This document shows positions 1,660-24,540 of a stretch of 24,690 nucleotides of DNA, in pieces; position 1 is the first letter of the stretch, and the number at the start of each line of letters is the position of its first letter. The notes under the pieces are model-generated. The model saw only the letters and a list, made by a program, of their open reading frames with translations, did no database searches and was not told the DNA's origin. The translations under genes were made by a program, and so were the position numbers. This stretch comes from Nitrospirota bacterium. GTDB taxonomy: Bacteria > NPL-UPA2 > JAADIA01. The DNA is taken from NCBI GenBank assembly GCA_013151555.1, contig JAADIA010000086.1:1-24690 (forward strand). The letters run 5' to 3'.

Positions 1660-2426
1660 ATGGAACAGAAAGTAATCATCGTCATGCCGGCTTACAATGC
1701 TGCCAGCACTATAAAGAAAACGGTTCAAGACATCCCCGAAGGATTTGCAGATGAAATCATCCTGGTTGATGATGCCAGTGAGGATAACACGGTAGAGATC
1801 GCACGTTGGGACTGACCGTCTTAGTGCAGGCAAAGAATAGGGGCTATGGAGCCAACCAGAAAACCTGTTACGACGAGGCGCTGAAACGCCGGGCAGATGT
1901 GATAATCATGATTCATCCTGATTATCAATACGACAGCCGCCTGTCTCCCCTTTTCGCTGCCCTCATCGGCAATAATGTCTGCGACTTAGTATTAGGTTCC
2001 CGGGTGCGGACCCGGAAAGAATGCTTGGCTTCAGGGATGCCGTTTTACAAGTACCTCTCCAACCGGGGCCTCACTTTCCTGGAGAATATCATCCTGGGAC
2101 AAAACCTTTCCGAGTGTCATACAGGGTACCGGGCCTATTCCCGGCAGGTTATAGAAGCTATCCCCTATCACCGCAACTCTGATGATTTTCTCTTTGATAC
2201 CCAGATGCTGGTCCAAGCAGCTTATTTTGATTTCCGCATTGGGGATTTGCCGGTGCCCTGCCGATACATGAAAGAGGCCTCCTCTATCAATTTCAAGCGC
2301 AGTACCGTTTACGGCCTGGGAACTTTATGGACACTTGTCCAGTTCGGTTTACAAAAACTTCATCTGAAGAGCTTTCCCTTATTTGAGACCTCTTCACACA
2401 GGATATCTTCGGCGACCGAGGAATAA
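1660..2426 (+). pseudogene. Family 2 glycosyltransferase, split by a one-base frameshift
   Basis: Translation starts at ATG 1660 after an AGAGGAAAGG ribosome binding site. It gives the GT-A nucleotide-binding start ([11 protein letters not shown], then [10 protein letters not shown]) and runs into TGA at 1813-1815. The rest of the protein ([37 protein letters not shown]) continues in another frame from 1806. Adding one base after 1805 rejoins them as A-R-L-G-L-T-V, the expected family sequence, giving about 255 residues. The HPDYQYD block takes the place of the metal-binding DxD region, as is usual in dolichyl-phosphate-sugar-synthase-like GT2 enzymes, so it is not itself a defect. Such enzymes move a sugar from a nucleotide donor to a lipid or glycan acceptor at the inner membrane. 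The frameshift may be real or a sequencing error; the otherwise intact second part favours an error or a very recent lesion. The last codons and TAA stop lie in a repeat shared with 15395-15440. Confidence 0.85.
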
Positions 2427-3070: not shown

Positions 3071-4930
3071 CTACTCCTCAACAGCCAGATAGAACGTCTG
3101 TTCGGTACCACCGTCTTTGTCGGTAAGGACATTAACTCCTAAGGATTTTAGGACTTTCAAGATTTTCAGGAGTGGGTAGACTCTCTCTTTGAGATTCTTT
3201 CGGAGATTGTTTACATCTCTCTCCTTCTTATCGAGCTGCATCTGGTAGGCTTTCAGTTCTTTTTCCCTCTCCCCGGGGGTCTTAAATTTCCGGGATTCCA
3301 GGGCAGCTCTCCTACTCTTTATCCGGCTCAACTGCATCTCCTGCATTGACAGAACCCAACCGGTCAGGCTCTGGACGGTATCCAGAGTTTTTTCTACGTT
3401 GAGATAACACAAACTATTGCTCTTCTCCCTGAAAATGGATTTAACTCTCTTAAAGTTGGCATCCTTGAGTAAAGAGTCTTCCTTGCCTTTCTCCGCATCA
3501 ATCACTTTCTTTATGGTTGAGGTATTAATGCCAATAACGAGGAAATCGTTGACAAAAGCATACCCGGGTTGCAGGAAAGGAACCTGGAGAGCCCTTATCT
3601 TCTCCTTTTCATACTCTTCCCCTCCAAATTTTAAGGGGAAGCCTTTCTCTACACTTATCTTCTCCAGAATATTTTCCACTTTATCCAGGGACTCCCGGGC
3701 TTTTTTCTCATCTCTGACTTTGATCATAATAAAGTAGCCGGGCAGGGGAAATATCCCTTCCATGTTTACCTCAGAAACGGCGTAGGCAAACTCGTTACCC
3801 ATCCAGGAGAAAATATCATCTTCCAGGCTGAGTCCCCATTCGGTCTTTAGCCTTTCCACTCCCCCAGACATCTGTTCAGCGATTTGCGGATTCTGCTCTT
3901 TCAAAGTCTCCCGGAGATATCTCCAGTAAGCGCCTATGTCATCCAGGGAGTTGTTGCTGGCATAGATTATTGTCCCCTGAGGAATGTATTTAAGACTTTC
4001 TGGTTTCCGGGGTTTCCAGGAATATATCTCCCGTAAGTTCTCATCTATTTTATCCCGGTTGAGAAGCAGACAGAACTTAGCTTTCAGTCCCTTATCAAAC
4101 CAGGTAGCTCCTCCCAGGGATTTAAACATCTCCAGCGAAGCACGCGTCCGGCGGTTTAGCTCTTTCAGGGGAGACTTCCCTTTCGCCATTCCCCCGGCTG
4201 TCCCCTCCGGATAAAGCGCTAAAGCTTCCTTCACCTTGAGGTAGAACAAACCCGCTCTCTCTTTGGGAAGTCTTGCTCGAACATCTTGAAAGTTGTCATC
4301 GTTCGCCAAAGACTCCTGGCTCTCACGTCGGTAGATATCAATGGTCTCTTTTAAAGCCGAGTTATTCTTCCCCAGGCCCACGACCAGCCAATCACCCAGG
4401 AAAGCGTAGTTTAACTCGATGTCGGAAGAGAAAGCCTTTAGGTTGGTAATCTCCACTTCCTTATAACTCTCCGAGGACAGTTTATCTTCGCCGGATAGCC
4501 TATCCTGCATTTTGGCAAGACGCTCCTGGATTTTCGTTTTCATCCCCACTCTGGTCAGGAGAAGTCCCCGGGGTATCGAGCCCGGCCTTTCATCAGGAAG
4601 TAGAGCTAAAGCTACTTCCTTGCCAAAGAGCTCCCTTATACTTCCTCCGTCCAAGGCAAAGCCTACCTTTGACTCCAGCTTCCTCTGAAGCTCCCTTAGT
4701 TGAGGTTCTATCTTCCCCCACTCTTCTGAGGAAGTCACTTCCTTCCAGAAACGGGAAGCCTTGAACTTTTCCCAGTCGTTGCCTATCCCTTTCCGGGAGA
4801 TATAGAGAAAAGCCTCCGCCGGAATAAAGTCTTCCGCTCCTTTCGCCCCCTCCCTGCTCTTTAAAAACAGAGCAACCCCACTTGCTGTTAAGACAACTAA
4901 TATCAAGACGGCTGCGATAACTTTCTTCAT
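3071..4930 (-). CDS. DUF3352-like membrane-anchored protein of unknown function
   Basis: The 619-residue product has an N-terminal membrane anchor or signal segment (residues about 3-24, after MKK) and then a large exported-looking region. The opening P-A-E-A-F-L-Y-I, the repeated G-x-x-L-V-V-G-L/I-G blocks (GDWLVVGLGKN; NDFLVIGIN) and the overall layout resemble DUF3352 proteins, for which no function is known to me. Residues about 530-595 near the C-terminus are rich in Lys, Arg and Glu and probably form a coiled coil. A GGAAGGGG ribosome binding site precedes ATG 4930. The gene lies 244 bp downstream of the zinc-ribbon/TPR gene on the same strand; the gap holds a repeat element, so co-transcription is uncertain. 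The DUF assignment is from pattern memory and should be held loosely. Confidence 0.7.
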   Translation of the reverse strand: MKKVIAAVLILVVLTASGVALFLKSREGAKGAEDFIPAEAFLYISRKGIGNDWEKFKASRFWKEVTSSEEWGKIEPQLRELQRKLESKVGFALDGGSIRELFGKEVALALLPDERPGSIPRGLLLTRVGMKTKIQERLAKMQDRLSGEDKLSSESYKEVEITNLKAFSSDIELNYAFLGDWLVVGLGKNNSALKETIDIYRRESQESLANDDNFQDVRARLPKERAGLFYLKVKEALALYPEGTAGGMAKGKSPLKELNRRTRASLEMFKSLGGATWFDKGLKAKFCLLLNRDKIDENLREIYSWKPRKPESLKYIPQGTIIYASNNSLDDIGAYWRYLRETLKEQNPQIAEQMSGGVERLKTEWGLSLEDDIFSWMGNEFAYAVSEVNMEGIFPLPGYFIMIKVRDEKKARESLDKVENILEKISVEKGFPLKFGGEEYEKEKIRALQVPFLQPGYAFVNDFLVIGINTSTIKKVIDAEKGKEDSLLKDANFKRVKSIFREKSNSLCYLNVEKTLDTVQSLTGWVLSMQEMQLSRIKSRRAALESRKFKTPGEREKELKAYQMQLDKKERDVNNLRKNLKERVYPLLKILKVLKSLGVNVLTDKDGGTEQTFYLAVEE

Positions 4931-20309: not shown

Positions 20310-21128
20310 CTATTTTCTCCTCTTCACGATATATCTATCGCCAGCGGCGTTCTTTCTCCTGGTTTTATATCCTTTGGTCGGCTGTCCCCAGGGACTAACA
20401 GGATGACTTCCTCCGGAACTCTTGCCTTCACCTCCACCATGAGGGTGATCAACGGGGTTCATAGCCACTCCCCGCACCCGGGGACGCCTCCCCAGCCAAC
20501 GGGAACGTCCGGCTTTGCCTATCTGAATGCTCTCGTGTTCTAAATTCCCTATTTGTCCAATAGTAGCCTGACAACCCAAGCGAATTAATCTTACCTCTCC
20601 CGAAGGTAGTTTAACAGAAGCATATTCTTTTTCTTTTGACAGGAGTTGGGCTGCCCCTCCGGCAGTACGCACCAACTGTCCTCCCTTGCCCGGCACAAGT
20701 TCGAGGTTATGAATGAAAGTGCCTTCAGGAATACTACCCAGAGGAAGAGAATTGCCTATCTCTACTTCAGCTTTCAAACCGGAAAAAACCTCACTCCCTA
20801 CTTTCAGGCCCCGGGGAGCAATAATATATCTCTTCTCTCCATCCCGGTAACATAGGAGGGCAATCCTGCTTGATCTATTAGGATCATACTCAATGGAAAC
20901 TACTCGGGCAGGGATATCAAATTTATCCCGCTTAAAGTCGATGATCCGGTAACGACGGCTATGTCCTCCACCCCGATGCCGGGCAGTAACTCTTCCCTGA
21001 GAGTTTCTCCCCCCTTTTTTCTTCAGGGGACGAATAAGAGATTTCTGGGGACGGGTAACGGTAATTTCCTGAAAATCAGAACCCGTCATGAACCTTCTAC
21101 TGGGAGTTGTTGGTTTATATTTCTTCAC
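20310..21128 (-). CDS. rplB: 50S ribosomal protein L2 (uL2)
   Basis: The 272-residue product has the L2 start ([18 protein letters not shown]), [20 protein letters not shown], and the peptidyl-transferase-near block [16 protein letters not shown] with the conserved His. L2 is needed for subunit joining. The start is GTG 21128. Unusually, it is separated from rplW by an unrelated membrane protein gene, 55 bp upstream. Confidence 0.98.
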
Positions 21129-21183
21129 TTTTCAACCCTATCCTATGCGTTTTCGCTATTTTGTGCCTCATCGCGGAATCCTT

Positions 21184-22140
21184 TCACTCGATAAAGAATC
21201 GATCTCCTCCTTCATCTTCAGCATGGCGAAGAGCTTCCTGTGCCTTTTCAATCAAATCTTTATAGCTTGCCATCTCAGAGACATAAGAGGCTATCCCAAT
21301 ACTTAGAGTTATTCTGTTTTCCTTCACCTTCCAGGACTTCAAGTATTCTTCCAGGAGTTTCTTTACGCGTTTTGCCTGAATGGAAGCTCCGGTACCTCCC
21401 GTATGGGCCATGGTGATGGCAATTTTTCCATCTTCAATTCTTCCCACAGCATCTGCTTCCCGAATATTGTTGTCAATAATATTTACCATGCCTTCTTGAG
21501 CTTTCCTCATCGCCCGACCTTTCAACTGATCAGATTGATCAATATCTATTATAGTCAAAGAGAGAGGCGCAGAATAGCGCTTCACCTCAGCAAAAGATAT
21601 CTTCAGTTGACGGTAGAAACTTCGCGTCTCTATAACCGCTCTCCAGTCAACCGGACTAAAAAGGGATAAACAAAAAACATGCCAGAACCGCCAGGTGACT
21701 CCCAAGGCCGAGCTCAAAATGGCCGCACCGAGGGCCAGGATCAGAACTATAATCCAGATAATAACATCAGACACCTCAGAAGAAGTAGCGTTGAGCCAGA
21801 GAATCACGCTAGGCACCAGAAGGCAAAGAAAGAAAAAAGGATAGACAAGGGGAATATGAAACTCTGCCACCCTTTTATAAGACTCCCGGTTGATCATATA
21901 TTCCCACCGGAGAAGCTTAGCTGCTATTGCGCCCAGAAGGCTGAAACCGATCAGAAGCCCGATAACTACTTCTTTCAGTCCTTCCCAATGCATCCCCTGA
22001 ATCAGGATAATCACCAGAGGTGATAATAACAAAGCCGCTATTAATCCCCCCAAGAAACCCGCTATCACCAAGACAAACGGGGGAGAAAGAACAGCAAGGA
22101 TCTCATATTTCTCATTAGCTGAGATTCTCTCTTTTGCCAT
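21184..22140 (-). CDS. Polytopic membrane protein with degenerate GGDEF domain, inserted between rplW and rplB
   Basis: The 318-residue product has four or five hydrophobic segments in residues 14-160 and a C-terminal GGDEF-fold region (about 175-318). Recognisable GGDEF landmarks are I-D-I-D at 198-201, R-E-A-D-A-V-G-R-I at 227-235, L-S-I-G-I-A at 279-284, and the ending AQEALRHAEDEGGDRF. The signature itself reads E-D-G-K-I at 236-240 instead of G-G-D/E-E-F, and the F-K-x-I-N-D segment after the first Asp pair is absent. Cyclic-di-GMP synthesis is therefore unlikely; a sensory, nucleotide-binding or scaffold role remains possible. GAGGAG lies 11 bases before ATG 22140. The gene is 35 bp after rplW and 55 bp before rplB, so it should be co-transcribed with the S10 operon. 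I know of no standard gene at this position. Confidence 0.85.
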   Translation of the reverse strand: MAKERISANEKYEILAVLSPPFVLVIAGFLGGLIAALLLSPLVIILIQGMHWEGLKEVVIGLLIGFSLLGAIAAKLLRWEYMINRESYKRVAEFHIPLVYPFFFLCLLVPSVILWLNATSSEVSDVIIWIIVLILALGAAILSSALGVTWRFWHVFCLSLFSPVDWRAVIETRSFYRQLKISFAEVKRYSAPLSLTIIDIDQSDQLKGRAMRKAQEGMVNIIDNNIREADAVGRIEDGKIAITMAHTGGTGASIQAKRVKKLLEEYLKSWKVKENRITLSIGIASYVSEMASYKDLIEKAQEALRHAEDEGGDRFFIE

Positions 22141-22175
22141 TGCTTCAAACTCTCCTCAGGTAACTTACCTTCTCG

Positions 22176-22454
22176 TTAAGCCAGATCTATCTTATCCCCG
22201 GCCTTTAAAGTAACAATAGCTTTCTTCCAGTCAGGTGTCTTTCCCTGGTGAAAACGAACTCTTCTTTGTTTACCTCTCATCCTGACCGTATTTACTTTTA
22301 CCACTTTCACCTTAAACAAATCCTCAATAGCTTTCCGTACTTCTATCTTATTTGCTCTCTCATCTACAACAAAGGAATATTTATTATATTTTCCCGTTAA
22401 ATCCGTACTCTTCTCTGTAATTATCGGACTTTTTACAACAGTATGAGCATTCAT
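22176..22454 (-). CDS. rplW: 50S ribosomal protein L23 (uL23)
   Basis: The 92-residue product has VVKSPIITEKST, YSFVVDERANKIEVRKAIE and NTVRMRGKQRR, the L23 pattern. L23 is the tunnel-exit docking site for trigger factor and SRP. It follows rplD after a 97-bp gap, and is followed by the GGDEF-like membrane protein rather than rplB. Confidence 0.97.
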   Translation of the reverse strand: MNAHTVVKSPIITEKSTDLTGKYNKYSFVVDERANKIEVRKAIEDLFKVKVVKVNTVRMRGKQRRVRFHQGKTPDWKKAIVTLKAGDKIDLA

Positions 22455-23287: not shown

Positions 23288-23892
23288 ATGAGGTATCCTC
23301 CGTTGCATCCCGGAACTGCGCCTTTCACTAAAAGCAGACTCTGGTCCAAATCAACCTTTATTACCCTCAGGTTCCGGCAGGTCACCTGTTCCGCCCCTAC
23401 CCTGCCGGCCATTTTCTTACCTTTAAATACCCGGGAAGGATAAGCGCTCGAGCCAATAGACCCCGGTCGCCGATGCCACTTATGAGTCCCATGGCTGGCC
23501 GGGCCACCGGCAAAACCCCATCTTTTCATAACTCCCGAGAATCCCTTCCCCTTGGAAACACCGGTAATGTTAACCAAGTCTTTCTCCTTGAAAATGTCAA
23601 CCTTAATTTCCTTCCCGGCTTCATAAACATCAATATCATCTGCCCGGAATTCCTTAAGCATCCTCTTGGGGGTAACTCCAACCTTAGCAAAATGTCCGCG
23701 CCGGGGCTTATTGACCCCATTTTCTTTCTTATCCTCAAAGCCAAGCTGGACGGCCTTATAACCGTCTTTATCCTCTGTCTTCTTCTGGACGATAGAACAA
23801 GGACCTGCCTTGATGATAGTTACCGGGATTGCCTCCCCGCTCTCGCCAAAAAGTTGAGTCATGCCAATTTTTTTACCTATTAGTCCCATCAT
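23272..23892 (-). CDS. rplC: 50S ribosomal protein L3 (uL3)
   Basis: The 206-residue product starts [15 protein letters not shown] and has the central block [30 protein letters not shown] and [11 protein letters not shown] of L3, which reaches the peptidyl-transferase centre and starts 50S assembly. Its ATG overlaps the rpsJ TGA as ATGA, so the two are coupled; no clear Shine-Dalgarno is visible. The final codons are read from a heptad repeat tract. Confidence 0.97.
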
Positions 23893-24500
23893 AATTTTAT
23901 TTCCACATCCACTCCTGCCGCCAGGTCCAACTTCATCAGAGCATCCACTGTTTTACTGGTCGGCTCGATTACGTCAAGCAACCTTTTATGAGTCCTGATT
24001 TCAAACTGTTCCCGTGACTTTTTATCTACATGAGGTGACCTGAGCACGGTAAACCGTTCTTTCTCCGTGGGAAGAGGTATAGGACCCGAGACTTGAGCTC
24101 CTGTCCTCCTCACCGTCTCTACAATCTCATGAGCAGAATGATCCAATATCCGATGGTCATAGGCCCGCAGCTTGATTCTTATCTTCTGTTTAGGAGTTCC
24201 AGCTACTTTTACTTTCTCTTCTTTCTTCAATTTCCGGCTTTCTTTAACTTCGGATACTTTACCTGCATTCTCCTTGGTCCGCCGCTCGGCCTCGGTTACT
24301 TTTACTTTCAACTTCTTCATTTCTTTCTTTTGCTTTTCTTCTTTTTTCTCCACCGGCTTCGCTTTTCCCGCCCCGACCTTTGCCTTTTTCTTTACTTCTT
24401 TCTTAACTTCTTTCTTTATTTCTTTTACCTTCTCTTCTTTCTTTTCCACTTTATCTTTCTTCACTTTCTCTACTTTCTTCTCTTTTTTTTCCTCAGCCAT
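23889..24500 (-). CDS. rpsJ: 30S ribosomal protein S10 (uS10) with long Lys/Glu-rich N-terminal extension
   Basis: The last 100 or so residues (from [17 protein letters not shown] through [20 protein letters not shown] to [12 protein letters not shown]) are ordinary S10, a 30S head protein and NusB partner in antitermination. Before them lies an extension of about 103 residues, mostly Lys, Glu and Val, with [17 protein letters not shown]-type repeats. GAGAAG eight bases before ATG 24500 supports that start; GTG 24509 is also possible. No Met lies near the core; the only nearer start codon is TTG 24230, with a weak upstream site, which would give about 113 residues. I favour the long form. It overlaps rplC by four bases. 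Confidence 0.9.
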
Positions 24501-24540
24501 TTTTTTCACTTCTCTTTCCTAAACAGAAACATTTAATGAT

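Follow-up and report, generated by a model that had tools for sequence, protein, structure and literature searches.

A gene for a 318-residue membrane protein, here called X, whose GGDEF domain is predicted to be catalytically inactive, lies precisely between rplW and rplB in the S10 operon of its host, and as far as was sampled this insertion is a singleton and specific to the lineage. It is a clear case of an intact signalling, non-ribosomal gene inside an operon that is among the most conserved in bacteria, and the surprise lies in its address and not in the protein itself. We give about an even chance to the reading that X is a membrane I-site receptor for c-di-GMP of the PssE/YdaK/CdgA kind, which would have lost catalysis, come into the S10 operon by a lineage-specific insertion and be transcribed with it.

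Position, rarity and origin of the inserted gene

The window, that is, the whole stretch of DNA analysed, is an entire contig of 24,690 bp from a draft genome bin (1.81 Mb, 99 contigs, 94% complete). Its minus strand encodes a canonical S10-spc-alpha ribosomal cluster, and X as well. The features are the following.

22176-22454, minus strand: rplW (L23), intact upstream neighbour of X (Pfam L23, E = 4.5e-34)
22152-22157, minus strand: GAGGAG ribosome-binding site of X, 11 nt upstream of the ATG (from the sequence)
21184-22140, minus strand: gene X, 318-residue membrane protein with a GGDEF domain that is probably catalytically dead (open reading frame; Pfam GGDEF, E = 6.3e-14; host-like GC of 0.449 and codon usage)
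21706-22083, minus strand: predicted membrane region of X, about four long helices, residues 20-145 (hydropathy peaks; models of low to moderate confidence; no homologue in 386 genomes)
21451-21462, minus strand: I-site motif R227-E-A-D230, five residues ahead of the signature position (alignment A1)
21421-21435, minus strand: degenerate signature EDGKI in place of GG(D/E)EF, residues 236-240 (alignment A1)
21187-21639, minus strand: GGDEF-fold domain of X, residues 168-318 (AF2 pLDDT mostly >90; VIA Z 21.7 to 6eib_C and 20.7 to PleD 2wb4)
20310-21128, minus strand: rplB (L2), intact downstream neighbour of X, GTG start (Pfam L2, E = 1.6e-56)

Gaps of exactly 35 bp on the rplW side and 55 bp on the rplB side flank X, whose open frame of 318 codons is intact and starts with ATG. 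The earlier note had described a same-strand reading frame of 318 residues parting the two ribosomal genes, with these gaps and a GAGGAG site, and every coordinate and gap size in it was right. The window contained no Rfam matches.

To place the insertion, we compared the rplW-rplB junction across a phylum sample of nine genomes, including that of the window, and across the 68 measurable loci out of a further 80 from many phyla. The nearest of the other phylum genomes belong to the same order as the host, with an rplB 77% identical. All six phylum relatives in which the region is assembled (G001, G002, G004, G006, G007, and G008) have no gene inserted there, with spacings that run from an overlap to at most 88 bp, and so the insertion that the earlier note had proposed seeking in the S10 operons of relatives was absent down to the same-order level, the closest available. 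The gap in all 68 further loci was 8 to 196 bp and held neither X nor another gene of its size. Hence, the junction was unbroken in 74/74 other genomes measured, in agreement with the initial statement that rplW and rplB are adjacent almost everywhere. X is not a conserved S10-operon gene, as it is missing at this site in relatives, and most simply the insertion is younger than the divergence from the nearest family sampled. Among the papers searched, nothing relevant turned up on a non-ribosomal gene at the rplW-rplB junction or on GGDEF genes in ribosomal operons.

The GC content of X is 0.449, compared to 0.460 (sd 0.029) for 104 host open reading frames of at least 200 codons each, and its codon usage falls at the 44th percentile among these genes. 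No direct repeats flank X, no inverted repeats occur at its ends, and its junctions are repeat-free, which rejects a mobile element as its carrier. Because X is host-like in both composition measures and lacks flanking repeats, a chimera or a recent foreign insertion appears unlikely as its source. The host genome is a draft metagenome bin in 99 contigs and a single assembly, which would leave room for an assembly or binning artefact; we regard this as very unlikely, given the exact placement of X between two intact genes of the same strand, its host-like composition and its repeat-free junctions.

The origin of X was searched for among its relatives. No ortholog was found by tblastn in genome contigs or viral contigs; plasmids yielded nothing above 26% identity and 386 genomes, at E <= 1e-15, nothing above 33%, in both cases over the GGDEF part only. 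The N-terminal 170 residues alone matched only the window's own genome among the 386 genomes searched. In a tree of GGDEF domains, the branch of X is the longest, with an end branch of 3.8 changes per site. A recent duplication of a host GGDEF gene was rejected, as the paralogs are 26-27% identical and X stands alone on its long branch, and a candidate paralog on contig C42 proved to be a response-regulator GGDEF-like protein of a different type. X is also not a relocated ortholog of the HAMP-like/GGGRF protein of the sister family (L021/L024), since the host keeps that gene elsewhere (contig C7, 64% identity). The missing orthologs and the orphan membrane domain restrict what can be concluded about X.

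The GGGRF protein is itself a second degenerate GGDEF protein, with two membrane segments and a HAMP-like linker, and is common to the order (L150:1787-2677 on G000:C7 in the host; L021; L024). In the host, its gene neighbours one for a pilT-like ATPase and the I-site, reading RDVD, is retained, while in G001 and G004 the arginine of that site has been lost.

Since X is sited in the S10 operon, it should be transcribed with the growth-linked ribosomal genes; growth-linked transcription is what this position most simply implies, and co-transcription with the operon is probable. No minus-strand promoter- or terminator-like sites were found in 21129-22175, which covers X and both gaps, a scan that is weak evidence either way. 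The proposal that X is made at ribosomal-protein levels was not borne out, as genes of one operon need not be translated equally (SecY belongs to the same cluster) and codon usage here fails to set ribosomal genes apart.

The GGDEF domain and its active-site columns

The assignment of the C-terminal half was consistent across methods. Pfam PF00990 matched residues 173-313 (E = 6.3e-14, 52.5 bits against a cut-off of 23.8), NCBIfam TIGR00254 matched with E = 8.5e-14, and the domain was also matched by sequence to solved structures. The AlphaFold model of X has a pLDDT mostly >90 from residue 168 onward and aligned with GGDEF structures of the PDB with Z scores of about 20-21.7 and an rmsd of 2-3. 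The earlier note had named profile searches and structure prediction as a check that could refute a GGDEF fold; both recovered the fold.

The domain of X was then aligned with 20 other GGDEF domains. X lacks FK and N of FKxxND, where it carries a four-residue deletion, GH and GD of GHxxGD, all five signature residues (EDGKI instead) and K and R of AKxxGRN, and it keeps DxD at 199-201. Only 1/16 catalytic or substrate columns, a list modelled on PleD, is kept in X, compared to 25/49 other conserved columns (Fisher p = 0.0012), which indicates a preserved fold whose active site is gone. Thus, X has the GGDEF fold of a diguanylate cyclase but neither the signature nor the substrate-binding residues of one, and it appears to be a catalytically inactive GGDEF protein. 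The view that EDGKI makes a diguanylate cyclase improbable is strengthened by the 15/16 catalytic columns found changed or deleted.

Ahead of this domain, the models predict helices at residues 20-49, 52-83, 99-118, and 123-145 with low to moderate confidence (mean pLDDT of 62 for the membrane part modelled alone). The charge distribution would fit an N-in/C-in topology, with the basic loop 78-95 inside and the acidic loop 117-125 outside.

The I-site and the c-di-GMP receptor reading

X carries, in order, R227-E-A-D230, AVGRI, and EDGKI, which is the standard spacing of an I-site. The I-site-associated R258 is also kept; against the receptor reading, X has K260 at column 264, another position close to the I-site where arginine is conserved. 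The R and D of the I-site are common ancestral residues, present in 15/20 (75%) and 17/20 (85%) of the other aligned domains, respectively. At roughly 40-50% retention of conserved columns, X would keep both by chance with a probability of about 0.16-0.26; in this one sequence, their retention is suggestive and statistically not significant.

Three host proteins have a normal GGEEF signature (active-type diguanylate cyclases), and the host genome also has five PilZ matches and six matches to HD_5, the domain of HD-GYP phosphodiesterases. Because these genes are present, c-di-GMP signalling very probably exists in the host. X therefore combines what an I-site receptor would have, an inactive signature with RxxD five residues upstream, with a host that carries genes for making c-di-GMP. 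Under the receptor reading, the host GGEEF cyclases would make cytoplasmic c-di-GMP, which may bind the retained R227xxD230, and the GGDEF domain would use the four membrane helices to relay the signal to a partner, in the manner of PssE and YdaK. The target would probably be an envelope process rather than the ribosome. The idea of X as a membrane receiver of nucleotides is thus possible, and the intact RxxD, which the earlier note had not mentioned, speaks for it; its tie to L23 found no support. If X binds c-di-GMP, its transcription would track growth rate directly, a new wiring for a c-di-GMP receptor.

Three characterized proteins are the closest comparisons. In PssE (Lmo0531) of Listeria monocytogenes, DKDDA replaces GGDEF, an RxxD precedes it by five residues, and the Kd for c-di-GMP is 0.79 uM (PMC4125290). 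PssE resembles X in size (the PssE GGDEF construct ends at residue 285), in its destroyed signature and in the spacing of RxxD; however, its gene closes an exopolysaccharide operon and its binding was measured, where X lies in the S10 operon and its binding is only predicted. YdaK of Bacillus subtilis/B. velezensis is, like X, a membrane protein with a degenerate GGDEF domain and an I-site, and has been proposed as a c-di-GMP receptor (PMC9800504), but it is encoded with the EPS-synthesis genes ydaLMN, whereas X has no adjoining EPS gene. CdgA (Bd3125) of Bdellovibrio bacteriovorus also pairs an inactive GGDEF (GVNEF) with RxxD and binds c-di-GMP with a Kd of about 2 uM (PMC3271064); the active site of X is far more degenerate and X has four predicted membrane helices. 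PssE, YdaK, and PelD are encoded beside the polysaccharide genes that they control. No exopolysaccharide or other candidate target gene adjoins X, which counts against the receptor reading, as does the low to moderate confidence of its membrane helices. Its neighbours, rplW and rplB, are uninformative on the target because they are ribosomal.

GdpP/YybT is a membrane protein with a degenerate GGDEF domain and DHH/DHHA1 domains, whose gene adjoins the L9 gene rplI in Firmicutes. X shares with it the membrane part, the degenerate GGDEF domain and the place beside a ribosomal-protein gene, and PF24898 matches X weakly (25.6 bits, under the cut-off of 30). Unlike GdpP/YybT, X has no PAS or DHH/DHHA1 (no Pfam match), ends at its GGDEF domain and sits in a different operon.

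Rival readings, the ribosome link and other features of the window

The same residues could be read otherwise. X may be a dead GGDEF domain that binds no nucleotide and serves a membrane sensor only for protein-protein contacts or dimerisation, its RxxD being an ancestral leftover. The unremarkable statistics of R and D retention and the far divergence of the domain (3.8 changes per site) fit this picture, but nearly the whole active site was lost while R and D stayed, together with one more basic residue close to the I-site, and we consider the scaffold rather doubtful. It is unlikely that X is now without function, a GGDEF gene trapped in the operon as a passenger and decaying there: the degenerate domain, the missing orthologs and the singleton position would suit such a gene, yet X has a full open frame, a good ribosome-binding site, host-like codon usage (44th percentile among 104 genes) and a high-confidence fold in which non-catalytic conserved columns were preferentially kept.

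A third reading would explain the adjacency to rplW: through X, nucleotide signals or the state of the membrane would be linked to ribosome assembly or to the L23-based targeting of nascent chains. X does lie exactly between rplW and rplB on the same strand, with no regulatory sites of its own, and a membrane protein gene stands beside the gene of the tunnel-exit protein L23. Against this, X is missing from the six phylum relatives and from 68/68 other loci, no ribosome-binding domain was found in it, and expression level alone can draw a gene into an operon; we find this reading quite improbable. Since the insertion is not shared by relatives, the rplW-X pairing is no evidence of a functional linkage. 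The suggestion that X ties signals to L23 or ribosome synthesis had as its sole basis the adjacency in one genome; such a link is not supported, though X might conceivably act directly at the ribosome. Effects of c-di-GMP on ribosome modification or assembly through other proteins, RimK (PMC4741518) and RlmI (PMC11894153), have been reported, and to that extent a link between c-di-GMP and the ribosome is conceivable and no more. It is very improbable that X is a membrane c-di-GMP receptor with its synthesis locked to ribosome production, acting at the ribosome-membrane interface (L23/SecYEG) so that protein export or ribosome synthesis in the host lineage would be coupled to c-di-GMP.

Other genes of the window were noted as well. 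The S10 encoded by rpsJ (23889-24509, minus strand) carries about 105 additional N-terminal residues, rich in Lys and Glu, ahead of the normal S10 start. The same-order genome G001 (L029) has a K-rich extension too, of 60 residues or more before the contig ends; G002 (L032) and G008 (L031) have none. A family-2 glycosyltransferase frame (1806-2426, plus strand), whose profile match starts at position 55, looks N-terminally truncated or frameshifted, and a DUF3352 protein (3071-4930, minus strand) is encoded right past the end of the alpha operon.
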